NCBI RefSeq assembly: GCF_010119205.1
Contig: NZ_WRXM01000001.1
Coordinates: forward strand, 1,054,001-1,118,000
Reading direction: 5' to 3'
Source: Haloarcula limicola
GTDB taxonomy: Archaea; Halobacteriota; Halobacteria; Halobacteriales; Haloarculaceae
DNA length: 64,000 nucleotides
Shown here: positions 351 to 16,065 of the stretch, one piece after another
How positions within the stretch are numbered: position 1 is the first letter of the stretch
Layout of the letters: each line of letters starts with the position of its first letter
Made by a program: the position numbers and the translations under genes
Notes under the pieces: generated by a model
What the model saw: only the letters and a program-made list of their open reading frames with translations
What the model was told of the DNA's origin: nothing
Databases searched by the model: none

Positions 351-3029
351 TCAAGCCAGTTCCGCGACTTTCTCCTCGATTCGCTCGACGCGGTCGACCC
401 GCGAGCGGTTCGAGGTGACGTTCTTCTCGACGCGCACGAGGTCGTCGGCCGCGCCGACGAGTTCCTCGTCGTGGCTGACGACCAGAATCTGCTCGACGCC
501 GACGTCGTCGCGCATGTACTCGACCAGATCGAGCAGTTGCGTGACGTGGCCGGAGTCGAGGAAGACGGTGGGTTCGTCGAGGATGAGCGGCGGCATCGGC
601 GCGGACCCCTCGATGCCCTCCGCGAGCAGCCGGTAGATGGCACAGCGCAGGCTGAGGTTGAACAGCGCGCGCTCGCCGCCGGAGAGCTGCTCGGGCTCCA
701 GCGGCTCGCCGTCCTTCTGGAACACGGTCAGCTGGTACTCCCCGTCGAGTTCGATTCGGGCGTAGGAGTCGTTCTGATAGACCAGCGAGAACGTCTCGTT
801 CAACATCCGTTCGAGCGTCTCGACGTTGCGCTGGCGCAGCTCCGCCCGGAGCGTCCCGTACATCTCCTGTAGCTGTTCGGCCTCGTCGTACAGCGATTCG
901 AGCTTCTCGACCTCCCCGGCCAGCTCCTCGCGGCGCTCCCTGAGCGATTCCAGTTCGTCGAGTTCGTTCTCGACGGCACCGACGGCGCTCTGGAGGTCGT
1001 CGCGCTCCTCGCGCAGCTCCTCTAACTTCGCGTCGGCCTTCTCGACGTAGTTCTCGGCGCGCTGTCGCTCCGAGCGCGCCTCCTCGATGCGGGACTCGTC
1101 TACCTGCTCGGTCAGCTCCCGCTTTCGCTCGCGCTTCTCCGTGAGGCGTTCCCGGCGCTGGTCGTTCGTCTCGGCCAGTCGCGTGCGCGTCTCGCGGCGC
1201 TGTTCGATCTCGCGCTCGCACTCCTCTACGTCGGAAAGCAGTGTCTCGATCCGTTCCAGCCGCTCGATAGCGGTCTTGACCCGCTGGCGCTCCTGGTTAC
1301 ACTCGGCGATGACCGACCGGCAGTCGTCGGCCGCCTCGCGCTGCTCGGTGGCATCTTCGCGCTTTTCCTCGGCCCGTGAGTCGAGGTCCGCGGCGTCCTC
1401 GCGCAGTTGCTCGGCCCGCTCTTCGTCGGCTTCCAGTCCCGACTCCTTCTCCTCGACCAGTTGGACGACGTTCGAGCGGTTGTCTTCGAGCGTCGCCAGT
1501 CGGTCGGCGGCGTCGGCGAGCGACTCCGCGCGTTCGAGCTTCGATTCGAGCGTCTCGACCGTCTCGCGGGCGGATTCGAGGTCACCCTCCAGTTCGGCGA
1601 CGCGCTCCCGGTCGTCCTCGATGGACTCGACGTGGGGCGACTCCTCGACGCTCTGCCCGCACTCGGGGCACTTGCCCGCTTCGAGGAGAGTCTCGGCCTC
1701 GCGGAGCGACTCGCGCTCGCTCCGCAGTTTCGTCTCCAGTTGGGTCACTCGCTGTCGGGACTCGTCGAGTTCGGCGGCCACCTCCTCGCGGTGGGCCTCG
1801 GCGGACTCGCGGTCCACCGCTGCGTCGGCGAACCGGGCTTCGAGCGTCTCGATTTTCCCGTCGATCTCGTCGAGTCGGTCCCGGCGGTCAGCGATGGTCT
1901 CGCGGGCGTCTTCGAGGGCCGATTCGACCTCGTCGGCCTCCCCTCGCTTCGCCTCGGCGCGCGATTCGAGGTCCTCGGCCTGCTCCTCCAACGAGTCGGC
2001 GGTGCTGTTGTGCTCTTTCGCCTCGACGCTCTGTTCGGTGATGCGCTCCTGAATCTCCTCGTCGCGGTCCTGTAAGTCGTCGAGACGGGCATCGACCGCC
2101 TCCGAGTCGGCCTCGTCCAGTTCGCTCTCCGCGACCGCCTCGTCCAGCTCCTCCGAGAGCGAGTCGCGCCGCTCTCTCAGCTCCGAGATGCGCGTCTCGA
2201 GGTCGTTCCGTTCGCTCTCCGCCTCGGTGATCTCGGTCTCCAGTTCCGATATCTCCTCGCTCAGCCCGTCCAGCTCGGTCCGGCGCTCCTCGTACTCCTC
2301 CAGGACTGCGCTGGCTTGCTCCAGCGTGTCCGTCGCCGTCTCCCGTTGCTCCTCGATGCGCTCGATTTCGCTCTGCGTGTCGTTCAGTTCGCTCTCCAGT
2401 CCGTTCAGACGCTCGTGGAGGTCGCGGTCCTCCTTCGCCTCGATCTGCTCGTCCAGTTGCGAGAGGCGGCTCTGCTTGTCCTCTCGGACGCGCTTGACTC
2501 CGACGCGGGCGTCGCTCGCTCGCTCTCGATAGGTCTCCAGTTTCCCGAGCTGCAACAGGTCGTCGAGCATATCCTGTCGCTCGCCCGGCGAGGCGTTGAT
2601 GAGCTTGTTGACCTCGCCCTGCCGGACGTACGCGCAGTTGACGAACGCCTCGCTGTCCATCCGCAGGAGCTCGGTGACTCGTCGGCGGACGGCGCGAGCG
2701 CCCTCGTACGTCTCCTCGGGCGTTTCGAGGACGCACTTGGCGGTCGTCGCTCGCTCGCCGGTGTTACGCACGCGGCGCGTGAGGTGGTAGTCGCCGCCGG
2801 CGTGAGAGAACCACAGGTCGACGGTGCAGTCGTCCGCGCCGATGGTGACCACCTCGTCTAAGTTCTCGTCGATGGCCTTCGACCCGTAGAGGGCGAAGAA
2901 GCACGCTTCGAGCAGCGAGGACTTCCCGCTGCCGTTCAGCCCGTGGATGACCGTGACGCCGGGCGAGAGCGCGAGATCGGCGTCGTCGTAACACTTGAAG
3001 TTCTCCAGTGCGACGCGCTGGAATCGCAT
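351..3029 (-). CDS. rad50: DNA double-strand break repair ATPase Rad50
   Basis: SMC-like ATPase of the Mre11-Rad50 complex, which tethers and processes DNA ends. The 892-residue length is normal. The Walker A motif GLNGSGKSS is at residues 30-38. Long heptad-rich coiled coils flank the zinc hook CPEC (Cys454 and Cys457), where two Rad50 molecules dimerise. The ABC signature [10 protein letters not shown] lies near residue 780 and Walker [12 protein letters not shown] near 813. It is the downstream gene of an mre11-rad50 operon; its ATG overlaps the mre11 TGA by one base, implying translational coupling. All diagnostic motifs are intact, so I expect a functional protein. Confidence 0.97.
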
Positions 3030-4348
3030 CAGTCGTCACCACCGAGGAACTGGTCCATGCTCGATTGGTCCTCGCCCTCGTCGGCGCTCTGCTCGGGCCG
3101 CTCGTCGCTCCCGGTCGTTCCCGTCGGCTGTCCGCCGTCGGCTTCCGCCGCCGTCGGGCCGCCACCGGACGGGTCGGAATCGGACGCCTCGTCGTCTCTC
3201 AGTCCCCCGTCTACCGATTCGTCGCCGGCTGAATCAGCGGCGGTCAGCGAGTCGGGGTCCTCCTCGACGAGTTCCTGCACGCGCTGCTCGACCGTGTCCG
3301 CGACGTTGGCGTCCGCGACTTTCGAGGCGCGAACGGTCTCGTCGATATCCTGTGCGGCTCCGCTGAGACCGAGTTCGCGGACGCGCTCGGCGACGGCGTC
3401 GTCGGGGTCGGCGAAACTGACGCTCGTCTCTCGCTCGTCGGCGGCGAGTTCGCGGTGATCGGTGACGCGGGCGACGAGCGCGCCGGCGTCCAAGGCGTAC
3501 TCCTCGACGCTCGCGGGAGCGATCGGATCGCCGTCGCCGTCGATGCCGACGATGACGACGGCGTCTTCCACGTCGTGTTCGCCGACGCGGCTCCGGACCC
3601 GTTCGACGCCCTCCTCGGGGCCGAGTTCCACGTCGACGAAGACGAACTCGCGGGTGTCGACGCCGCGGCGGGTGATGCGCGTCTCGCCGTCGAACGCGAC
3701 GATGTTGTAGCCGCGGTCCTCGCGCTCGCTGGCGCTCGCCCGCTCGGTCGACCCGCAGTAGGTGACCCACGTCTCGTCGATCCGTTGCTTGCCGGGGTCG
3801 TGATTGTCGCCCAGCAGCAGAGCGTCAAAGGCCACGGACGACTGATCGAGTATCTCGCCGGCGTCCCAGTCGCCGTAGTCGAACGGTTGGAAGAGGCCGT
3901 GCGTGACCAGCGCGGCGTGGTCGACGTCGTGAGCGGCGAAGTCGTATTCCAAGTCCTCGCGCTGGGAGCGAGGGACGAAGTCGAGTCCGTAGAATGCGGT
4001 ATTGCCCACGACGGTCGGTTCCGCGTCGAGGCGCGTCGCCAGTCCCAGCGACTCGTAGAGGTCGAGCCACTGGGCGTCGCGCTTCGCCTCGTGGTTGCCC
4101 ACGACGGCTAGAAATGGAATGTCGGCCTCTGCGAGCTCTTCCAAGACGGAGAGCGTCCCCATGATATCCGAGAGCGTCGGCCGTCGGTCGTGAAAGAGGT
4201 CCCCCGCGTGGACGACGGCGGCGACGTCGCCCTCGATCGCGTCACGGACGACCCGACGGAAGGCGTCGAGGAAGTCCTGCCGGCGTTCGGGTACGTGGTA
4301 CTGCTGGTACCCGACGTGCGTGTCGCCGGTGTGTATCACCCGTGTCAT
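3029..4348 (-). CDS. mre11: DNA double-strand break repair nuclease Mre11
   Basis: Manganese-dependent metallophosphoesterase nuclease partnering Rad50 in DNA end processing. The phosphodiesterase motifs appear in order: HTGDTHVG at the N terminus, [21 protein letters not shown] and LLGDNHDPG. The last has Asp where many homologues have the first His of GHIH. The final 90 or so residues are a low-complexity acidic tail rich in Asp, Ser and Gly, which may be a flexible Rad50-binding or halophilic extension. It is 439 aa long. It is the first gene of the operon and is divergent from the M24 gene, with about 120 bp between the two starts for both promoters. Confidence 0.96.
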
Positions 4349-6053: not shown

Positions 6054-6110
6054 GGGCCGTCTGGGTCCGTCATCAGGTAAGAAGGCTCGCACCGCGGCCC
6101 GAGGCGAGAG

Positions 6111-6118
6111 TTCAAATA
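6111..6118 (+). promoter_or_regulatory. TATA element of the filament locus
   Basis: TTCAAATA ends 23 bases before the ATG at 6142. It is the only AT-rich element in the 88-bp divergent gap and would give a leaderless transcript. Confidence 0.5.
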
Positions 6119-6141
6119 CCAGCGCCGGACCACGCACGGCT

Positions 6142-6726
6142 ATGACCGACGCAGAGACCCTCGAAGAGCGCGTTCGGACCGTCGAGCGCGCCGTCACCGA
6201 CGGCGACCACGAATTCCCCGAAGCGACCGAGCTCGCCGACCTGCGAGCGCGGGTCGAAGCCCTCGAACAGCGATTCGCGGAACTGGACGACCGAACGAGC
6301 GAGCTCGAAGCGGCGACGCAGGCTCTCCGCGGATACGTGGGAAACGTCCGCTCGGTCAACCAGGACGTCGAACGGCGCGCCGACGCCGCGCTCGCTGCCG
6401 TCGAAGAGATGGAGCGGCGACTCGATGACCGACAGCCGTCCGCCACCGACAGCGACACCGGGACGGCCGAACAGGGTTCGGTCGCAACCGCGGTTGAGAA
6501 GTCAGCCCGAGCCGAGACAGTCGCACCGGCCGACGCGACGCCGCCGACGGAGACTCCAAGGGCAGCCTACAGCGCGGATGGCGCTTCATCAGTTGAGGCC
6601 GACGCGCAACGGCGGCGCTCGTCCGGCACCGACGCGGCCGACCTCGCCGCCTCGACCTGCACCGACGATCACGCCGACTCCGAGCGGGACCCCGGCGTCG
6701 TCGAACGGATTCGGTCGGTACTGTGA
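6142..6726 (+). CDS. Coiled-coil protein, first gene of type IV filament locus (DUF7310-like)
   Basis: A 194-residue soluble protein. Residues 5-110 are dense in heptads (ETLEERVRTVERAV, LRARVEALEQRFAELDD, ELEAATQALRGYV), predicting a long coiled coil. Residues 110-180 are disordered and Thr/Ser/Ala/Asp-rich, and the C-terminal stretch VVERIRSVL is a short amphipathic helix. From memory, haloarchaeal genomes place a small coiled-coil family (annotated DUF7310) directly before a secretion ATPase, which matches this context. The stop overlaps the next gene's GTG by four bases. A role as cytoplasmic scaffold for the ATPase is an inference. Confidence 0.75.
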   Translation: MTDAETLEERVRTVERAVTDGDHEFPEATELADLRARVEALEQRFAELDDRTSELEAATQALRGYVGNVRSVNQDVERRADAALAAVEEMERRLDDRQPSATDSDTGTAEQGSVATAVEKSARAETVAPADATPPTETPRAAYSADGASSVEADAQRRRSSGTDAADLAASTCTDDHADSERDPGVVERIRSVL

Positions 6727-7220
6727 TACTCCGGTTCGCTCTCGGCGTCGCGCTCACCGCGGCGCTGCTGACGGTCAGCGCCCCGGCCGTCTCGACGGCG
6801 CGGGCCGACGCGGCCGACGCCGCCGTCGAGCGGCAACTGTCGACCCTCGCGGAACGCCTCCGGACGATGGTCGCGACCGACTCCGCGACGCGTGGCCCCG
6901 GCGCGCGCCGGGTCGTGACCGTGAACCTTCCCGAGGAGAATCCGACGAGCGCCGCCGTCGCCGGACTCCGCTTTCACACTCGCCGGGGTATCGGCTTCGC
7001 CAGTTGGCGAGTCCACGATGCGATGCACACGCGACGCCTCGTCGACGTTCCGATTCGATCCGCCGGCGGACCGCTCTGGCTCGGTGACCCGGGAGACCAC
7101 CGCCTCGTGTTCGCGCTGGAACTGCGGGACGGACGGCGCGTCGTGACGGTCCGCCGACTGAGCGCCTCGGAAGGCGCAGGCGGTACGGAGAGAAGTGCGG
7201 GAGGGCCCGTCGATGCGTAG
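6723..7220 (+). CDS. Membrane-anchored/exported hypothetical protein of filament locus (DUF7311-like)
   Basis: 165 residues from a GTG that overlaps the previous stop (GTGA). The N terminus MILRFALGVALTAALLTVSA is a single membrane anchor or signal sequence ending near an Ala-rich stretch. A helix follows (AVERQLSTLAERLRTMV), then an Arg-rich beta-type domain with alternating hydrophobics (RRVVTVNLPEENP, LVFALELRDGRRVVTV). This organisation resembles a minor pseudopilin, with an anchored helix followed by a beta domain. I see no class III prepilin cleavage motif. It overlaps the ATPase start by eight bases. Confidence 0.72.
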   Translation: MILRFALGVALTAALLTVSAPAVSTARADAADAAVERQLSTLAERLRTMVATDSATRGPGARRVVTVNLPEENPTSAAVAGLRFHTRRGIGFASWRVHDAMHTRRLVDVPIRSAGGPLWLGDPGDHRLVFALELRDGRRVVTVRRLSASEGAGGTERSAGGPVDA

Positions 7221-9087
7221 CTGGTTCACGGCCGATAGTGGCGGCGAAGGTCGCGACTGTCGCTGCTCGGCCGCGTTCGAGGGGGACCGGCTCGCCGTCG
7301 CTGCCGACGACTGTTCGGGGAGCGGGCGTCTCGGCGAATCACCTGACTGTCGAGCGACGGTGATAGCGGCGCTCCGCGACGCCGACGTGGACGCCGTCGT
7401 CACGACCAGCGACGGCGTGGCACGCGCGTATCTCGACGACTCGGCCGCGCTCCTCGTCGCCGCCGGTCGGTTCGCGGCCCGCGTCGAGCCGATCGACGGC
7501 CGGCTGGCGGCGCGGACTCGCCGCGAACCGCTGGCCGCCGCGACGGAAGCGGTCGGTCGCGCCGGCCCGGTCGCGGACCTCGCGGCGGAGACCGGCCTCG
7601 CGCTACTCGCCGAGCGAGCGGCGACCGAGAGCGGGCTCGACCCGTACGTCGGACCGACGGTGAGCGACGCCCGCGTCGCCACCGCGCCGCCGGCGAACGC
7701 CTCCCTCCGCGACCGGAGAACGGTCGAGACGGGCGCGGTCGTCCGTCGATACGCGTCCCAGAGCGCACTCGACACCTATCACGTCCGACCGCGGGAGCAC
7801 GAGTTCGACCCCGAAACGACGCGACTGCTCGCCGCCGCCACGGATCGGCTCGCGGCCGCTGCCGGCGAGCGCGTGACGGCGCAGGAAGCGGCCGAGACCG
7901 TCGCCGACAGCGGGGCGACGACAGCGGCGGTCGCGGCGGTCCTCCGAAAGCACACTCGGGGACTCGGTATCCTCGAAGACCTGTTCGCCGATCCCCGCGT
8001 CTCGGACGTGTTCGTCACCGCGCCCGTCGCCGACACGCGACTGCGCGTCGAAGTCGAGGGCGAGACGATGCGGACGAACGTGCGGCTGACGAACGAAGGG
8101 GCGCGGGCGCTCGCGTCGACTTTCCGGCGGACGAGCGGCCGGGCGTTCTCGCGGGCGAGTCCGACGCTGGACGCGACCGCCACCGTCGCCGGGCGACAGG
8201 TCCGCGTCGCGGGCGTCGGCGAACCGGTCAGCGACGGGCTGGCGTTCGCCTTCCGCGCACACGACGGGGCTCGCTGGCGGCTGTCGGAGTTCGTCGAGAA
8301 CGGCACCCTTTCGCCGGGGGTCGCCGGGTTGCTCTCAGTGGCCGTCGAGCGCGGTGCCGCCTGCTTGGTCGCCGGGCCGCGCGGGGCGGGGAAGACGACG
8401 ACGCTCGGCGCGCTCCTCTGGGAGCTCCCGTCGGCTGTCAGGAGCGTCGTCATCGAGGACACGCCGGAACTCCCGGTCGCCGACTTGCAGAGCGAGGGCC
8501 GGGACGTCCAGCCGCTGCGAACCGCGAGCGGCGACGGGCCGTCTATCGACGCCGCCGAGGCGCTTCGGACCGCGCTCCGATTGGGCGACGGCGCGCTCGT
8601 CGTCGGCGAAGTGCGCGGCGAGGAAGCGAGCGTCCTCTACGAGGCGATGCGTGTTGGTAGCGGGGACAGCGCGGTGTTGGGAACGATTCACGGTTCCGGG
8701 GGTTCGGCCGTCCGCGAGCGCCTCGTCGCGGACCTCGGCGTCCCCGAGAGCGCGTTCGCCGCGACCGACCTCGTCGTGACGCTCGCGCCGCCGACGGCCG
8801 AGGCCGGGCGCGGCGTCGCGGCCGTCGAAGAAGTAATCGACCGCGGCGACGGCGTCGGCTTCGAGTCGCTGTTCGAACGCGACGGCGCGGCGGCGACGGC
8901 GACCGGCCGACTCGACCGGGGGACGAGCCGTCTCGTCGAATCGCTCTCCCACGCCGGCGAGTCCTACGAGTGCGTACTGGAGACGATTCGGGCGCGAACA
9001 GCCCGGTTCGCCGACGGCGTGCCGACACAGACCGACCAGTCGGCAGCGACAGTCGACGCAATCGACACGACCGAGGCTGGACGATGA
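7213..9087 (+). CDS. Type II/IV secretion system ATPase (PilB/GspE/TadA family)
   Basis: A 624-residue hexameric motor predicted to power filament assembly. Walker A is GPRGAGKTT (388-396), followed by the Asp box VIEDTPELP, Walker B LVVGEVRGEE (about 463-472) and the His box LGTIHGSG. The N-terminal 50 residues carry Cys16, Cys18, Cys34 and Cys46, a CxC...C...C arrangement that could bind zinc. The ATG at 7213 is chosen over the GTG at 7195 because it gives a normal overlap with the preceding gene. The stop overlaps the start of the platform gene by four bases (ATGA). Archaeal family members drive pili, archaella or Tad-like systems; which applies here is not shown. Confidence 0.92.
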   Translation: MRSWFTADSGGEGRDCRCSAAFEGDRLAVAADDCSGSGRLGESPDCRATVIAALRDADVDAVVTTSDGVARAYLDDSAALLVAAGRFAARVEPIDGRLAARTRREPLAAATEAVGRAGPVADLAAETGLALLAERAATESGLDPYVGPTVSDARVATAPPANASLRDRRTVETGAVVRRYASQSALDTYHVRPREHEFDPETTRLLAAATDRLAAAAGERVTAQEAAETVADSGATTAAVAAVLRKHTRGLGILEDLFADPRVSDVFVTAPVADTRLRVEVEGETMRTNVRLTNEGARALASTFRRTSGRAFSRASPTLDATATVAGRQVRVAGVGEPVSDGLAFAFRAHDGARWRLSEFVENGTLSPGVAGLLSVAVERGAACLVAGPRGAGKTTTLGALLWELPSAVRSVVIEDTPELPVADLQSEGRDVQPLRTASGDGPSIDAAEALRTALRLGDGALVVGEVRGEEASVLYEAMRVGSGDSAVLGTIHGSGGSAVRERLVADLGVPESAFAATDLVVTLAPPTAEAGRGVAAVEEVIDRGDGVGFESLFERDGAAATATGRLDRGTSRLVESLSHAGESYECVLETIRARTARFADGVPTQTDQSAATVDAIDTTEAGR

Positions 9088-10781
9088 CGGTGCGAGCCAC
9101 GTTCGAGCGACTGCGACCAGCGTGGGACGACTTTCTCACCGTTCCGACGGAGTACGAGCAAGCGTGCCGATTCCTCGGCGTCGACCGCGACCCGGCACGG
9201 CTCCTCGGCGCGAGCTACGCGCTCGCGGGCGGGTTCTGGCTGACTGGACTCGTCGCCCTGTCGGTCGGGACCGGCGGTTTCGCGGTGCTGGGGGGCGGCA
9301 TGTCCCTCCTCGCGGCGGTCGGCGTCGCGCTCGCGGGGCGCTACGGGGTTCCGCTGGCCGCACGGGCGCGACGCGTCCGAGCGCTCGGGACCGCCCCCTC
9401 GCTGGTCGTCACGCTCGTCCTCGGCGTGACGCTGTGGCCCAGCGCGGAGCGGGCGACGGCCTTCGCCACGGCAGCGAGCGACGGATTGCTGGCCGAGCGG
9501 CTACAGCGACAGCGGCTTCGGGCGCGCGGGACGCCACGGAGCGGCCTTCGGGCCTTCGCCGAAGCGTGGAGCGACCAGTTTTCGGCGCTCGGGCGAGCGG
9601 TGGAGTGCGTCGAACGGGCGGCCGTCGTCCCCGCGGCCGAGCGCGCCGCGGTGCGTTCGACGGCTCGGCGGCACGTCCTCGACGGGACACGCGAGGAGAT
9701 GGCACGTTTCGCCGCCGACCTCCGCGCGCCGGCGACCGGGCTGTACGCCTTCGGCGTCCTCCTCCCGCTGGCGTTCGTCTCGCTCCTCCCGGCGGCCGCC
9801 GCGGCGGGCGTCGCCGTCACGCCGTCGCTGCTCGCCCTGACGTACGGCGTCGGGCTCCCGGGGGGACTGGTCGTCGCCAGCGCGTGGCTACTGGCCCGGC
9901 GTCCGGTCGCCTTTCCACCGGCGACCGTGCCCCGGACTCACCCGGACGTCCCGTCGACGCCGACGCCGGCGCTCATCGGCGGCGGCCTCGCGGCCGTCTT
10001 CAGCTGGCTGGTCGGGAGTAGCGTCGTTCCGGGATGGGGGCCGCCGATCGCCGCGCTCGGCGCGGGTGCGGGAACGGCGCTCGTCGTCCATTACCGTCCG
10101 GTGAGCGCGGTTCGCGAGCGCGTGACGGCCGTCGAGGGGGCCCTGCCGGACGCGCTGTCAGCCATCGGTCGGCGCGTCGACCGCGGGCTGTCCGTGGAGG
10201 CGGCGATCGCCGAGACGGCCGACGTGACGGCCGATCCGCTGTCGTCCCTGCTCGATGCGACGCTCGCCCGCCAGCAGCGACTCGGCTGTAGCATCGAGTC
10301 GGCGTTCGCCGGGGAGCACGGCACCCTTGACGAGTTGCCGAGTCCGCGACTCCGACAGGCGGCGACGCTGCTGGACGCGGCGGCGGCCGTCGGACCACCG
10401 GCGGGCGACAGCATCGCCACGATGGGCGACCACCTCGACGAACTCGCGGCGGTCGAACGGGAGACGCGCCGGGACCTCGCGCAGATCACCGGGACGCTCT
10501 CGAACACCGGCGCGCTGTTCGGGCCGCTGATCGGCGGCGCGACGGTGGCGTTGGCGGAGTCGATGCGGAGCGGCGGTCCGATCGAAGCCGTCTCGACCGG
10601 GCTGCTCGGCCCGGTCGTCGGCTGGTACTGCCTCGTTCTCGCGGCCGTCCTGACCGCGCTCTCGACGGGACTCCACCGGGGACTGGACCGCGCGCTCGTC
10701 GGCTACCGCGTCGGACTGGCGCTCTGTTCGGCGACAGCGGTGTACCTCGTCGCCGTCGTCGCTACCCGCCTACTCGTCTGA
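9084..10781 (+). CDS. Type II secretion F/TadC-like membrane platform protein
   Basis: 565 residues with clustered hydrophobic segments around residues 45-100, 225-290, 310-345 and 480-565. Two cytoplasmic helical stretches hold the T2SSF-type repeats: one around residues 140-215 (RGTPRSGLRAFAEAW) and one around 355-470 (LPDALSAIGRRVDRGLSVEA, then LGCSIESAFAG). This tandem arrangement is typical of archaeal platform proteins pairing with a PilB-type ATPase. Its ATG is embedded in the ATPase stop (ATGA), so the two are probably made in fixed ratio. It ends the first transcription unit of the locus. Confidence 0.9.
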   Translation: MTVRATFERLRPAWDDFLTVPTEYEQACRFLGVDRDPARLLGASYALAGGFWLTGLVALSVGTGGFAVLGGGMSLLAAVGVALAGRYGVPLAARARRVRALGTAPSLVVTLVLGVTLWPSAERATAFATAASDGLLAERLQRQRLRARGTPRSGLRAFAEAWSDQFSALGRAVECVERAAVVPAAERAAVRSTARRHVLDGTREEMARFAADLRAPATGLYAFGVLLPLAFVSLLPAAAAAGVAVTPSLLALTYGVGLPGGLVVASAWLLARRPVAFPPATVPRTHPDVPSTPTPALIGGGLAAVFSWLVGSSVVPGWGPPIAALGAGAGTALVVHYRPVSAVRERVTAVEGALPDALSAIGRRVDRGLSVEAAIAETADVTADPLSSLLDATLARQQRLGCSIESAFAGEHGTLDELPSPRLRQAATLLDAAAAVGPPAGDSIATMGDHLDELAAVERETRRDLAQITGTLSNTGALFGPLIGGATVALAESMRSGGPIEAVSTGLLGPVVGWYCLVLAAVLTALSTGLHRGLDRALVGYRVGLALCSATAVYLVAVVATRLLV

Positions 10782-10788
10782 CCTCGAC

Positions 10789-10796
10789 TTTAAATC
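10789..10796 (+). promoter_or_regulatory. Internal TATA element before the exported-subunit genes
   Basis: TTTAAATC lies 24-31 bases before the ATG at 10820, in the only non-overlapping gap of the locus (38 bp). It suggests that the four exported proteins form a separately controlled unit from the ATPase and platform genes. Confidence 0.6.
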
Positions 10797-10819
10797 GGAG
10801 AACGGGACCACCCGGTCAC

Positions 10820-11287
10820 ATGTTCGAGACACACGCGGAGACGCTGTTCGTCTGGGTGGCGCTGGCCGCGGTCAGCGTCGCCGTCCTCGGCGTCGTCGTC
10901 GGCTTGCCTTCGACGGCACCACCGGACGCCGCCGCGATCGCGGCGACGGTCGACGAGGTCGCGACCAGTCCACCGGGCTCTGTCGCCACTCGGGGCCTGA
11001 CTGCTACCGAATGGAGGCTGACGAGGCGACAGGTCGGCCTCCGAACGGACGGCGGTACCGCTCACGCGACGTTTCTCAGGCACGCGGTGCCGGCCACCGA
11101 AGGGCGGCTCGCGGCCGCGCTCGACGGTCATCGTCCGTCACGGCTGTTCGGGTCACCAGCGAGTTTCCAGCGAGCGATTGAGCGTGCCGAAACCGGGACG
11201 GCCGCCGGGGAGTGGCGACCGGCACCCGAGCGAGTGACTGTCAGGCGAGTCGCCTGGGGAGGCGTCGATGTCACGCTCGTCGGCTAG
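10820..11287 (+). CDS. Membrane-anchored filament-locus protein (DUF7283-like)
   Basis: 155 residues. A short acidic N terminus (MFETHAETLF) leads into one transmembrane helix (about residues 10-30, VWVALAAVSVAVLGVVVGL), followed by a soluble domain of mixed helix and strand. There is no prepilin peptidase motif before the helix. It is the first gene after the internal promoter and overlaps the next gene by 20 bases. From memory, a set of families DUF7283-DUF7286 occurs in this order behind haloarchaeal PilB/PilC pairs; this assignment rests on gene order and size. A minor pseudopilin-like role is inferred. Confidence 0.72.
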   Translation: MFETHAETLFVWVALAAVSVAVLGVVVGLPSTAPPDAAAIAATVDEVATSPPGSVATRGLTATEWRLTRRQVGLRTDGGTAHATFLRHAVPATEGRLAAALDGHRPSRLFGSPASFQRAIERAETGTAAGEWRPAPERVTVRRVAWGGVDVTLVG

Positions 11288-11657
11288 GGGCGCGACCGAA
11301 CCGCTCGCGGCGCTGATGGCGGTCTTCGCCGTCTCGGCGGGACTGGCGCTGTACGCGGGCGTCCTCGACGACGCGCTGGCGACGACGGGCGGCGAGCGGG
11401 ACGTCGCGGCCCCGACCGCCGACGCCGTCGAGCGTCGGCTGACGACCGCCGGCGTCGTGGACCCGGCGCGGATCGACGGGGCGCTCGCAGCGGTTCCGAC
11501 CGGTTACGAGGCAAACGTCACGCTGCGGGCCGAGCGTCGCTGGAGCGTCGGTCCCGCGCCGCCGGCCGACGCCGCCAGCGACTACCGGACGGTGAGCGTC
11601 GCTCTCGGCCCGGCGACCGTCCGCCGCGGCACGCTCAGGGTGCGTGTCTGGCGATGA
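11268..11657 (+). CDS. TadE/pseudopilin-like small protein of filament locus (DUF7285-like)
   Basis: 129 residues. The N terminus SSARGATEPLAALMAVFAV places a charged RG pair immediately before an EP-containing hydrophobic helix. This resembles the archaeal prepilin/TadE arrangement, with cleavage possible after the Gly and Glu near +3/+4. The rest is a small domain with conserved-looking strands (YEANVTLRAERRW, YRTVSVALGPA). The ORF overlaps both neighbours (20 bp upstream, 4 bp downstream), pointing to coupled translation. It is the best pseudopilin candidate in the locus. No prepilin peptidase gene is in this window. Confidence 0.72.
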   Translation: MSRSSARGATEPLAALMAVFAVSAGLALYAGVLDDALATTGGERDVAAPTADAVERRLTTAGVVDPARIDGALAAVPTGYEANVTLRAERRWSVGPAPPADAASDYRTVSVALGPATVRRGTLRVRVWR

Positions 11658-12535
11658 GTCGCGCGACCAGCACCGTCCTCGACGTGACGCTGTTCCTGCT
11701 GTTGCTCGGTGCTGCCGCGGCGGCCGTGCTCGGCGGAGCCGCGGACGCCCCGGCGTCGGGGGGCAATCCGGCCGCCGAACAGATCGAGCTGCTCGGCACC
11801 AGCACCGCTCACGTCAGCTACGCGTTGGAGCCGCCCGGGTCGCCGCCGGACTGGACGGCGAACGCGACGGCGCGCCACCGGCGAACCGCTCACGGCACCG
11901 TCGCACAGCTGCTCGCCGACGCTGCGATGAGCGGCGTCACGGTCGAGGGGAGACGGCTATCGACGGCCGGAACCGACTTCGAGCGGGCGGTCGCCGAGAC
12001 GACGCGGTCACGCCTCAGCGAACGACGCGAGCCGGGCCGAATCAGCGCGGTCCGCGTCCGCTGGGAACCGTACCGCGGCGCGCCAGTTTCCGCGGCGACG
12101 CGGATCGGCGAGCGGCCGCCCCCTGCAGCCGACGTGCGAGCCGCGACGCTGACAGTATCGAGTCCGATGCCCGATGTGCGCGAGCGTGCGACCCGCGCCG
12201 CCCGGACGCGAGGGTTTCGCGGGACCGCCGCCGTCGTCGCCCGCGCCGTCGTCGACGGCCTGTTTCCGCCATCGCAGGCCCAACTGGCGCTGCGCGGCGA
12301 CTATCCCGCCGATACGCTGATGGCGACTCGATATCGACGGACGGCCGCGCTCGCTGACGGCGGACGGCTGCCCGTGCGGACGGAGAACACGACGCGACTC
12401 AACGACCGGCTGACGGTGTCGCTCACCGATACGTTCGAACGGGACATGCGCGCCCGGTTCGATTCACCGCGGACCGCGGCCGGGACCGTCGAGACCGGCA
12501 CCGTCCGAATCACGGTCAGGACGTGGTCGCCGTGA
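11654..12535 (+). CDS. Membrane-anchored exported protein of filament locus (DUF7284-like)
   Basis: 293 residues. The N-terminal membrane helix (residues 8-28, VLDVTLFLLLLGAAAAAVLG) is followed by a long extracytoplasmic domain. Several N-glycosylation sequons (NAT, NTT) occur, as expected for a surface-exposed haloarchaeal protein. An Arg-rich central part includes RAARTRGFRGTAAVVARAVV. Both ends overlap the neighbouring genes by four bases. I do not recognise the fold. Its place in the operon points to a structural or priming subunit of the filament or secretion machine. Confidence 0.72.
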   Translation: MSRATSTVLDVTLFLLLLGAAAAAVLGGAADAPASGGNPAAEQIELLGTSTAHVSYALEPPGSPPDWTANATARHRRTAHGTVAQLLADAAMSGVTVEGRRLSTAGTDFERAVAETTRSRLSERREPGRISAVRVRWEPYRGAPVSAATRIGERPPPAADVRAATLTVSSPMPDVRERATRAARTRGFRGTAAVVARAVVDGLFPPSQAQLALRGDYPADTLMATRYRRTAALADGGRLPVRTENTTRLNDRLTVSLTDTFERDMRARFDSPRTAAGTVETGTVRITVRTWSP

Positions 12536-15500
12536 GAGACGACACGCGAGGCCGCGTTCCCTTCGCGCTCCTGGGCGTCCTCCTGCTCGTGAGCAGCCTC
12601 ACGCTCGCGCCGACGCTCACCCCCGACCCGGTGCCGAGCGACACCGCCGTCGAGCGCACGCTCGACCGGGCGTCCGCGGGGACGCAGACGGCGATGCGGG
12701 ACGGCGTGGCGACCGCCGGTCGCCGAGCGGCCGCGAGTCCGGTACTCGAACCGGCCGACACGCCCGCCGGCCGAGCGCTGAACGACAGTCAGCCGTTCCG
12801 TGACGCGTTGCGGCTGAGAGTGTATCTGCGGGTCCGCGACCACCTCCGGCGCGTCGAGGCGAGGAGCGAGGGCGTCGAAGCCACGGCGAGCCTCCCGGCC
12901 ATCGAGACGACCGAGGGCTATCGAAACGCTATCGACCGGGTCACCGTCGAGCGCGCGGGGGAGAACGGGACGGCGCTGCGAGCGACCGTCGAGAACGTCA
13001 CGCTGACCGCCCGGCGCGGCGACCGAGTCCTGACGCGTCGGGACATCTCTCCGACGGTGACGGTCGCGACGCCGGTGTTGCTGCTCCACGACCAAATGGC
13101 GACCTACGAGACGCGACTGCACGCGCCGATAGAGCAGCCGGGGCTGAGTCAGCGTCTGACCGCGCGGCTGTACCCGATGGTGTGGGCGCGCGGCTACGCC
13201 CAGTTCGGCGGCGTGCCGATCGAGAACGTCCTCGCCAACCGGCACGTCAGCCTCGCGGCCAACGGCGCGCTGCTGGGCGTCCAGCGGTCGACGTTCGGCC
13301 GGAGCGACCCGAACGGCCGCCAGGCGCTCACCGAGGCGACGGCGATGACCGGCGTCGAGGATCTGGTCACGGGGAGCAACGACACCGCCTTCGCGAGCGA
13401 ACTGCTCGGGCGGGCGTCCTATCGGCCAGTCGGCGAGGATATCAGCACCGGTGGGGTCGCCGACGAGTATCCGCGAGCCAACGAGACGATGCGAGTCGGT
13501 GTCAACGAAACCGCCGACGCCGCCTTCCGAACGGTCGCCGCACCGAACGCGCTCGACGAGACGACGGCCGACGCCTACACCGTCGAGGTCCGACTGGTCG
13601 CCGACAGTCGCCACGTCAGCGGCGGCCGACCCGACCGACCCGACCCGCCGGGGGAGAACTGGACGCTCGTCGCCGAGGAGACGAGCGAGACGACCCGGGC
13701 GATTGACGAGGCAGAAGCGACTCCCGGTGTGCCCGACGGCTGGCACGAACTGCGTAGTTTCGGCCGCATCGTCGCCGTCGAGTACACCCGCGTCGCGGTC
13801 TGGGAGTCCGTGGACGGGAACGAGAGCCGCCGAAGGCAGACGATAGCGAGCCGAACGGAGCGACGACGCGTGAGCGTCACCATCGTCGGCCGTCACGAGG
13901 GCGAGTCGGCCGCGCCGGACCGCCCGATCACGACGGCCCACGATTCCGACGGAAGCCCGGTCGACGGTCCGAATCTGGCCGACGTCGCGGGACGAGCGGA
14001 GCGGGGACTCGTCGACCGGGCCGGCGGTCGCGACGCCGTCACCGAGCGCGCCGCGGACGGTCGCCTCCGGACGCGAGTCGTCCCCGTGACGGCCGAACGA
14101 CCCGCCGAACTGCGAGCGTGGGTGTACCGCGACCTGCGGCGACTCCGCGAGCGAGTTCGGGCGATAAACGCGAGCGTCGAGCGCGGGGCCGTCGGCACCT
14201 TCGAGACGAACCCGGCGCGCCGCCTACAACGGCGTCTCGCCGAGCGACGCGCGGCCCTGGTGGACGCCCCGGCCACCTACGACAGCGCCGCCCAGAAGGC
14301 CCGCGTCGCGGCCCGCATCGCGTATCTCGACGCCGTCGAGGAGCGGCTCGCGGCCCGAGCGAACGGGCGAGCGACGGCCGGGTCGAGGGTCGAGTCCCAG
14401 TTGCAGGAACGCACCGGCGGCTCGCTGCGCGATCTCCGTCGGAGCCTGACCGCCCGCGAGACGCAGGTGCCGCGGGCGCGGCCCGTCCCCACAGGTCCCG
14501 CCGGCCCGGTTCGGACGCGGGTCGACGCGCGCCCGCAGTATCTCACGCTGGCGTCGCTCGACGAGTCGCGACACCCGGCGGTAGACGGGAGCGAACACCC
14601 CCTCGTGGCCCGCAACGTCAACGTCTTCACCGTGCCCTACGGCGACGCCGCCGACGCCGTGACGACGGGCGCGACGGCGTCCGCGGACCGGACGCGGCTC
14701 TCGACGGCGGCGACGGCGCTGGCGGCGGCGAACGCGACGGCCGCGAACGTGACCACGGAGGCCGCCGAAAACGAGAGCCTAAACGAGCACCGAGCGTCCC
14801 TGAACGACCGCGTTCGGGACGCGAACGACGGCGTGGCCGCCGAGCTCCGGGCGACGGTGCGCGAGGAGACGGGCGCAGACGCCCGGACGAGTCGGCGGAT
14901 CGTGACGGCGGGACTGCACCGCTGGAACTCCGCCCACGCGCGCGGGCTGGCGCTGGCGGACGGTCGGGCGGCGAAGCGCGTCGCCGCGGTCGCCGCCGAG
15001 CGGCGGGACCTCTCGGCGGTCGAGCGCGACTGGCTCCGGGTTCGGTTGTCGGGGACGGTGAACGACGCGCTGAAACGGCCCATCGCGCGACCCCGAGAGC
15101 CGGTGGTGAACCGGACCGCCGCAGCCACGAGAACGGTGGCGCGCGAAGCGCTTCACGCCGCCGTCGCCAACGCGACTGAACACCGGGCGAAGCAACTGGC
15201 GAAGAAACGGTTCGGCAGGCGGGTCCTGCCCGCGGGACTACCGATCGCACCGTGGCTCGGTCCCGTCTCGTGGTACGCGACGACGAACCTCTGGTGGGTC
15301 ACCGTCGAGGGCGAGTACGCCCGCTTCGCGGTCACCGCGAACCACGGGACACCGACGACGCCGGGCGCGACCACGACCTACGTCCGCGACGACGCGACCG
15401 CCCGGCTCGACGTGGACGACGACGGCGAGGACGAGGTGCTCGGACACAACGAGCGGCTCCGGTTCCGCGTGGAGACGGGCGTCGTAGTCGTCGTCGGCCC

Positions 15501-15576
15501 GAAACCGCGCGGCGTCGGCGACAGGGACGGGCAGACCGTCGAGACGTCGGCCGGGTGGCCGAACGCCGGAAAGTGA
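12532..15576 (+). CDS. Large exported Tad-like surface protein of filament locus (DUF7286-like)
   Basis: About 1014 residues from a GTG that overlaps the previous TGA (GTGA); a GTG three codons upstream at 12523 is an alternative. A single N-terminal membrane helix (FALLGVLLLVSSLTL) lies just behind charged residues, then nearly 1000 residues of extracytoplasmic sequence. This is rich in Arg, Ala, Thr and Asp, with many sequons (NGT, NVT, NET, NRT, NAT). Around residues 470-880 it is mostly helical with repeated RR/ER pairs, and near 905-930 is a hydrophobic aromatic patch (WLGPVSWYATTNLWWVTV). It is much larger than a pilin, so an adhesin, tip or scaffold role is possible. No enzyme motif was seen. 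Confidence 0.75.
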   Translation: MRDDTRGRVPFALLGVLLLVSSLTLAPTLTPDPVPSDTAVERTLDRASAGTQTAMRDGVATAGRRAAASPVLEPADTPAGRALNDSQPFRDALRLRVYLRVRDHLRRVEARSEGVEATASLPAIETTEGYRNAIDRVTVERAGENGTALRATVENVTLTARRGDRVLTRRDISPTVTVATPVLLLHDQMATYETRLHAPIEQPGLSQRLTARLYPMVWARGYAQFGGVPIENVLANRHVSLAANGALLGVQRSTFGRSDPNGRQALTEATAMTGVEDLVTGSNDTAFASELLGRASYRPVGEDISTGGVADEYPRANETMRVGVNETADAAFRTVAAPNALDETTADAYTVEVRLVADSRHVSGGRPDRPDPPGENWTLVAEETSETTRAIDEAEATPGVPDGWHELRSFGRIVAVEYTRVAVWESVDGNESRRRQTIASRTERRRVSVTIVGRHEGESAAPDRPITTAHDSDGSPVDGPNLADVAGRAERGLVDRAGGRDAVTERAADGRLRTRVVPVTAERPAELRAWVYRDLRRLRERVRAINASVERGAVGTFETNPARRLQRRLAERRAALVDAPATYDSAAQKARVAARIAYLDAVEERLAARANGRATAGSRVESQLQERTGGSLRDLRRSLTARETQVPRARPVPTGPAGPVRTRVDARPQYLTLASLDESRHPAVDGSEHPLVARNVNVFTVPYGDAADAVTTGATASADRTRLSTAATALAAANATAANVTTEAAENESLNEHRASLNDRVRDANDGVAAELRATVREETGADARTSRRIVTAGLHRWNSAHARGLALADGRAAKRVAAVAAERRDLSAVERDWLRVRLSGTVNDALKRPIARPREPVVNRTAAATRTVAREALHAAVANATEHRAKQLAKKRFGRRVLPAGLPIAPWLGPVSWYATTNLWWVTVEGEYARFAVTANHGTPTTPGATTTYVRDDATARLDVDDDGEDEVLGHNERLRFRVETGVVVVVGPKPRGVGDRDGQTVETSAGWPNAGK

Positions 15577-15636: not shown

Positions 15637-16065
15637 ATGCTCAGAGCGGAGTTCCCCGATGCCGGCGAGCGGTCGCCCGAGGAATTACTCGCGGCCTACG
15701 AGTCGATGCTCGCGGCCACGGTCGAATCGGTCGGCGTCGAGAGAGTCGCCGAAGAGACTGACCTGGACGAGACGACGGTGCAACGCGTCGCGGACGGCGA
15801 CGCCGCCGACCTCCCCCTAGAGGAGGCCGCCGCGATCCTCGGGACCGACCCCGAGTATCCCGACGCCGACGCCGTGCAGGCGGAGGCACAGGACATCCTC
15901 CTCATGGGGATGACGACGGCCGTGATGGACGTCGAATCGCTGGCCTCGGGCATCGACGACGAGATGGAACCCAAGGAGATCCAACAGAAGATAGAGGGTC
16001 GGTACCCGATGACGCTCGCCGAGTACGCCGTGCTTCACAGCTACATCGAGGGCGAACAGCGGTAA
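15637..16065 (+). CDS. Small acidic helical protein (DUF5791-like)
   Basis: 142 residues, acidic and almost wholly helical. The middle section VERVAEETDLDETTVQRVADGD reads like a helix-turn-helix, followed by LPLEEAAAILG. The C-terminal half contains DDEMEPKEIQQKIEGRYPM, which I associate with the haloarchaeal DUF5791 family. The stop is two bases from the start of the SDR gene, so the two are probably co-transcribed. A DNA-binding role is possible but unproven. Confidence 0.7.
   Translation: MLRAEFPDAGERSPEELLAAYESMLAATVESVGVERVAEETDLDETTVQRVADGDAADLPLEEAAAILGTDPEYPDADAVQAEAQDILLMGMTTAVMDVESLASGIDDEMEPKEIQQKIEGRYPMTLAEYAVLHSYIEGEQR

Follow-up and report, generated by a model that had tools for sequence, protein, structure and literature searches.

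The predicted PilB2/PilC2 type IV pilus operon of Haloarcula limicola and its candidate partners encoded in trans

Type IV pilus loci resembling the one analysed here have been catalogued in two surveys. The haloarchaeal pilB2/C2 type IV regulon adjoins cetZ2 and, in the available text of its description (Brown & Duggin 2023, PMC9856176), comprises an arCOG01818-type ATPase, PilC2, a number of predicted pilins and a single surface protein, and has DUF5791-like and epimerase genes alongside; the same portions of that paper name no pilin in trans, HerA-like partner or promoter box, and lean to a recent acquisition. Subclade 4F (Makarova et al. 2016, PMC4858521), as far as the available part of its description goes, combines a coiled-coil protein, an FtsZ-family neighbour, an ATPase with a cysteine-rich N-terminus, an S-layer-like protein and a major pilin of the PilA family (arCOG02981) that is encoded by itself and was linked to the subclade via a Methanocella locus. 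A hybrid crenarchaeal/euryarchaeal origin was inferred for 4F, and HerA appears in that part of the survey as a superfamily name only. The literature searched contained no experimental or functional study of the PilB2 locus. The PilB1/PilB3 adhesion pili of H. volcanii and pil-1/pil-2 of Hbt. salinarum use the same kind of motor and platform and an unlinked prepilin peptidase, and PilB3 of H. volcanii likewise takes pilins encoded in trans. H. volcanii cells deleted for pilB3 were reported to be without pili (PMC11588486), and PilB2 pili were therefore not seen under those conditions, which counts against the pilus reading proposed below.

The window analysed is a stretch of 64,000 nucleotides from Haloarcula limicola (NZ_WRXM01000001.1, positions 1,054,001 to 1,118,000). 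Eight ORFs at 6142-15576, all on the forward (+) strand, overlapped their neighbours by 4-26 bases, the sole non-overlap being a 38-base gap between the TadC and DUF7283 genes. An earlier note on this DNA had described eight tightly overlapping genes, and this was borne out. The set is far from chance, its full eight-gene order being kept in 67/80 named loci. All eight proteins had Pfam family matches, one of them (T2SSF) below the Pfam cut-off, and since six of the eight families are domains of unknown function, it was fair to say that the exported proteins match no known function. The leading gene, as in those 67 loci, encoded DUF7310 (6142..6726; E=2e-31), a cytoplasmic coiled-coil protein that is probably arCOG07564 of Makarova et al. 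(2016). It was followed by DUF7311 (6723..7220; E=3e-35), with one N-terminal membrane helix, and by the PilB2-type assembly ATPase (7195..9087; T2SSE E=9e-17, over cut-off), for which homologues favour ATG 7213 over GTG 7195 as the probable start. Inspection of the ATPase sequence revealed Walker A (GPRGAGKT), Walker B and His-type motifs. Its N-terminal cysteine cluster (C-x-C..C..C) recurred in 81/86 haloarchaeal relatives, and cysteines were visible in the methanogen orthologues too. The TadC/PilC-type platform (9084..10781; T2SSF E=0.001, under cut-off) had about eight membrane helices, kept its place after the ATPase in relatives and, by homologues, probably does start at 9084. The remaining four genes encoded the membrane-anchored exported protein DUF7283 (10820..11287; E=2e-44), the pilin-like exported proteins DUF7285 (11268..11657; E=9e-35) and DUF7284 (11654..12535; E=2e-86), and DUF7286 (12523..15576; E=0), an exported protein of 1017 aa and a candidate tip or adhesin subunit, whose closest named relative was that of Haloarcula amylovorans (87%).

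Downstream, DUF5791 (15637..16065, +; E=1e-49), a neighbour common to cetZ2 loci and probably arCOG04674, a number assigned by description, followed DUF7286 directly in 73/80 named loci, with an NAD-epimerase gene next; it was not clearly a member of the machine. In the sample of the class, a CetZ-family gene usually stood upstream in divergent orientation. With the H. volcanii CetZ2 sequence as query, taken from a PDB alignment, cetZ2 was found no more than 12 kb from DUF7286, always divergent, in 77 of the 99 genomes with both, and in a Haloferax-like genome (G112) the CetZ2 beside the operon shared 94% identity with its H. volcanii counterpart. Because cetZ2 adjoins and the downstream neighbours agree, the operon matches the catalogued pilB2/C2 regulon (PMC9856176; PMC4858521), although in Haloarcula limicola and the examined members of its genus it does not lie by cetZ2 (about 149 kb away here). 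At this non-cetZ2 location, genes that by eye look like rad50 and mre11 occupied 351-4348 (-), leaving about 1.8 kb between them and the operon downstream. The operon also fits subclade 4F, a placement made by shared gene features, with the difference that one 4F component was called S-layer-like and the large protein here has a pilin-like N-terminus. 'Uncharacterised', the word the earlier note had used, thus applies to the function of the locus and not to its existence. PilB1 and PilB3 represent other ATPase paralogues, with 24-29% identity to the operon ATPase in this genome, and have other pilin sets. Identity with pil-2 of Hbt. salinarum was rejected on transcript size and gene count, as that 6.9-kb, seven-gene locus fits a PilB1-type locus (L061) despite the gene name pilB2. 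The bacterial Tad pilus shares a TadA/CpaF-family ATPase, a TadC-type platform and pilin-like minor subunits, and its MinD-like TadZ/CpaE has a counterpart in the MinD-like gene with a promoter box described below. The best NCBIfam match of the ATPase was indeed to TadA/CpaF (TIGR03819, E=6e-35), but at 121 bits it fell far short of the cut-off of 373. No secretin or Flp pilin match was found among the operon proteins, and DUF7283-7286 had no sequence match to Tad proteins.

The set had been described as lacking ordinary pilins and a prepilin peptidase. This was true locally, with neither found in the operon region of the window, but not genome-wide. At haloarchaeal second-type loci (L047, L053, L057 and L163) and at a methanogen-type locus (L216), a pilin starting DER[AG]-x-EGLP-x-RL adjoined the motor, as did a gene for a HerA-like ATPase. 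A profile built from six such pilins had matches in 152 genomes, including all 145 Halobacteria with the ATPase among the 194 sampled. The start of the EGLP-type pilin is of class III type (DERA/IEGLPIRL, also given as DERA/IEGLPIRLVIALVVGV, the slash marking the predicted cleavage). In Haloarcula limicola this pilin is encoded at G000:C1:1712987-1713430 and contains a DUF7382 domain that passes the Pfam cut-off. Divergent beside it lay the gene for the HerA-like ATPase (342 aa; G000:C1:1711886-1712911), with HerA/DUF87 matches over cut-off and intact Walker A, Walker B and ATQRP motifs; the same adjacent, divergent arrangement was found in 80/93 genomes checked. A prepilin-peptidase-family gene (G000:C2:1025028; Peptidase_A24 over cut-off) was located at another place in the genome. 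With a cognate class-III-type pilin encoded in trans, the suggestion of a secretion or adhesion machine rather than a classical pilus was unsupported.

These dispersed genes were connected by a rare 24-bp promoter box with the consensus nGTTTAAATACGAAnnCGCGGCCA, also given as GTTTAAATACGAANNCGCGGCCA, that stops 8-10 bases short of the start codon. In the window the box occurred as AGTTCAAATACCAGCGCCGGACCA (6109..6132, +), 9 bases 5' of the DUF7310 start, with a PWM score of 15.8, low within the range of the training sites, and as ACTTTAAATCGGAGAACGGGACCA (10787..10810, +), 9 bases 5' of the DUF7283 start, with a score of 29.1. The internal TATA reported earlier proved real and conserved, as TTTAAAT at 10789-10795, and is part of this second box. 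A/T runs of at least 6 preceded DUF7283 in 55/99 loci and the ATPase start in 41/95; at most other internal junctions their frequency was 0-2%. The matrix was trained on the DUF7310, ATPase and DUF7283 sites across genomes, leaving out the pilin and the HerA-like gene, and the box nevertheless recurred at both of these. When about 1.71 Mb of the 3.9-Mb Haloarcula limicola genome was scanned, the two top sites were those of DUF7283 and the HerA-like gene (26.7), and the boxes of the pilin (16.6) and DUF7310 fell within the top seven. In the 3.15 Mb of sequence examined, nearly every site with a score over 18 lay at a gene of the PilB2 system; of the 52 such sites outside labelled genes, about six had, by our reading, no obvious connection with it. 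A looser pattern gave 3-5 matches per Mb in random sequence, so single weak matches mean little and it is the recurrence across genomes that carries the claim. The CsmR motif (TATCA-N4-TGATA) was considered as the identity of the box and is not the same motif. A box scoring 21.6 also stood 9 bases before the ATG of a MinD-type ATPase gene (L298:11843-12607, -; G000:C1:1305743-1306507; TIGR01969 E=5e-56, just under cut-off), a candidate positioning factor of the pilus, and a second MinD-like gene (L276) had a weak box score of 12.4.

Across the 194 Halobacteria genomes, the PilB2-type ATPase was present in 145 and DUF7286 in 151, including all 145 with the ATPase; the HerA-like ATPase was found in 141 of the 145. 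Among 295 genomes of the phylum, 72 had both ATPase and DUF7286, four DUF7286 only and three the ATPase only. Outside the Halobacteria, 33 genomes held both, with same-contig pairs at least 20 kb apart. The methanogen ATPases, taken as orthologues from a gap in scores, showed 41-47% identity, against 25-30% for others, and their loci consisted of ATPase and TadC alone (L216-L220 and L222) or of the exported module alone (L152, L155 and L215). Motor and exported genes were also split in genomes G033/G141 (L157 versus L052 and L051), G124 (L159 versus L158) and G046. Loss of synteny, which the earlier note would have held against its reading, was thus found in a few lineages, yet these have kept both the motor and the exported genes. 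That the two are retained together without linkage argues for a functional connection and is the best evidence that they work jointly. Fisher tests within the Halobacteria gave p-values of 1e-33 to 1e-37, figures that ignore shared ancestry. In 12 genera of mixed presence, however, ATPase, DUF7286, EGLP pilin and HerA-like gene vary together, with few exceptions, mostly remnants, and shared ancestry alone is therefore no sufficient explanation. This co-occurrence, seen even where the genes are unlinked, gives strong support to the type IV filament machine proposed in the earlier note, one that has a motor, a platform and exported subunits of its own. Gene order was rearranged in Halorussus ruber (L096), where the exported genes were followed by DUF5791 and ATPase-TadC, with DUF7310-7311 inverted. 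Second, diverged DUF7284/DUF7286-type modules without an adjoining motor were seen at L051, L052, L054, L056, L066 and L067, and some of the genomes with such modules hold a complete set elsewhere.

The same distribution bears on the age of the system. A mobile pilus island, recently acquired and inserted by cetZ2, was suggested in PMC9856176, in which cetZ2 loci that lack the pilus are described as retaining the flanking genes, and the position of the operon away from cetZ2 in the genus of Haloarcula limicola is compatible with such movement. This history nevertheless appears very unlikely given the traces of loss. In genome G012, between cetZ2 and DUF5791, the start of DUF7310 is fused to the end of DUF7286 in a 261-aa in-frame ORF (L160:8536-9321) with the promoter box kept, the scar of an internal operon deletion, and in G067 a DUF7286 remnant directly adjoins cetZ2. 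Methanogens moreover hold both the orthologous ATPases and exported modules. The deletion scar and the methanogen orthologues therefore favour, on the comparison of genomes, an old euryarchaeal system that would have been repeatedly lost and not recently acquired.

Taken with the N-terminal motifs described below, the gene families, conserved order, co-occurrence and common promoter box lead us to read the operon as the motor and minor-subunit module of a type IV pilus of the haloarchaeal PilB2 kind (subclade 4F), a reading to which we assign a probability of about 0.72. The EGLP-type, DUF7382 pilin encoded in trans would be processed by the unlinked prepilin peptidase and then polymerised by the PilB2 ATPase and TadC platform. 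DUF7285, DUF7284 and DUF7286 would insert in the membrane by their pilin-like N-terminal helices and form a priming or tip complex, which would display the very large head of DUF7286 at the surface, where it could serve in adhesion or recognition. For DUF7283 and DUF7311 a role in membrane anchoring or in alignment is proposed, and DUF7310 would be a coiled-coil partner in the cytoplasm. The HerA-like ATPase would support or position the machine, and CetZ2 and the MinD-like ATPase probably would too.

The N-termini of the exported proteins are consistent with this arrangement, within limits. R[GA]R[VI]PFA opened the hydrophobic stretch of DUF7286 in 99/107 relatives, close variants counted, and starts of R[GA]-x-ST in DUF7284 (52/105 relatives) and R[GA]Q-x-E-P in DUF7285 (52/103) had near variants in other relatives. 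All three resemble class III signal peptides, so that the earlier view that only the protein encoded at 11268 has a pseudopilin-like start was too narrow. Among relatives of DUF7283 there was no class III-type motif, and DUF7311 relatives, mostly starting M-I-R, were likewise without one. In DUF7286 an Arg immediately follows the putative cleavage site, and many DUF7284 proteins of the Haloferacaceae begin Met-TSTVLDV with the leader absent; these proteins may therefore escape pilin-type processing. Leaderless DUF7284 proteins, with Met on the would-be mature N-terminus, were seen in Halorubrum (L105, L113, L117, L128 and L132). The AF2 model of DUF7284 (mean pLDDT 89.4) had a sheet with a helical insert (176-277) preceding the last strand, and that of DUF7286 (mean pLDDT 82.8) several domains and a strand-rich C-terminal domain. 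No significant Foldseek (E>0.05) or VIA-align match was found for the former, its best VIA hit having Z 7.4, rmsd 5.1 and 90 aligned residues, with ribosomal proteins all through the list. No convincing solved relative was found for the latter either, the best match being SecB-like (Z 4.6, rmsd 3.1, 93 aligned), and neither model corresponded to a pilin or adhesin fold already known. Resemblance to unrelated enzymes, which would have weakened the filament reading, was thus not seen in these two models, and the lack of a match does not exclude a known fold for either, a GspH/I/J/K-type fold for DUF7284 included. Because the motifs are imperfect and the models have no convincing solved relative, the minor-pilin or tip complex is put forward as a proposal. 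Profile comparison gave no firm ground for homology among the exported families or between these and DUF7266 pilins; a resemblance of DUF7284 and DUF7311 to the latter, with single-sequence probabilities of 61.5% and 32.5%, fell to about 10-14% with a family alignment and was rejected. In a Methanosarcina-type genome (G390, L154:10086-16425), tandem copies of an exported protein of about 200 aa (SSPYGSIDVYYND...) followed a full DUF7286 gene and stood amid DUF7286 fragments.

Several of these features would also suit a short endopilus or secretion machine resembling a T2SS or pseudopilus, in which a membrane-bound piston acts, or DUF7286 is released, and no long pilus is made. Such a machine could combine several pilin-like subunits with one very large one, the operon in the window has no pilin of its own, PilB2 pili are so far unreported, and the sheet of the DUF7284 model, with its helical insert before the last strand, presumably recalls the minor pseudopilin GspK. 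We consider it unlikely nonetheless, as the pilin co-occurs with the motor in 145/145 genomes and has the promoter box in common with it; the loci also contain neither a conserved gene for secreted cargo nor an outer channel, although no such channel is expected in an archaeon with one membrane.

If the PilB2 system is a pilus, the HerA-like ATPase raises the question of DNA uptake or exchange. HerA-type ATPases have non-transport roles as well. By analogy with the Ups pili and Ced DNA importer of the Sulfolobales (PMC9905601), which likewise pair a type IV pilus with a HerA/VirB4-like ATPase (CedB), the protein could be a DNA pump, and its intact motifs, its family matches over cut-off, its presence in nearly all motor genomes and its position divergent from the pilin with the same promoter box agree with this. 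It differs from the Ced case in being small (about 340-370 aa), with no predicted membrane segment in the scored copy (L047_2); no CedA-like channel came to light at these loci, and four genomes, all of genus g3, had the motor without a HerA-like match. A role in DNA transfer is unlikely on present evidence. A mating transcriptome showed cetZ2 mostly down, and nothing was found in it on the pilB2 locus. The broader idea of a euryarchaeal DNA-exchange or uptake pilus with a dedicated HerA-like ATPase, found in haloarchaea and methanogens and with DUF7286 as the partner-recognising tip, is one we hold with equal doubt; if true, it would represent a third archaeal route of DNA transfer besides Ced and Ted.

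New here are the regulon as assembled, its HerA-like partner and promoter box, the co-loss in 12 genera and the deletion scar. Adhesion, aggregation, surface movement and DNA exchange all stand as candidate roles for the PilB2 system. PilB2/C2 is among the most widespread haloarchaeal pilus loci, being present in 145/194 genomes sampled, and the large 'surface protein' of the locus is suggested to be a pilin-like tip subunit. Together with a single pilin, a single HerA-like ATPase and the common box, the operon makes a short, testable list of parts in the genetic model H. volcanii, and a regulon so defined allows a search for its regulator.
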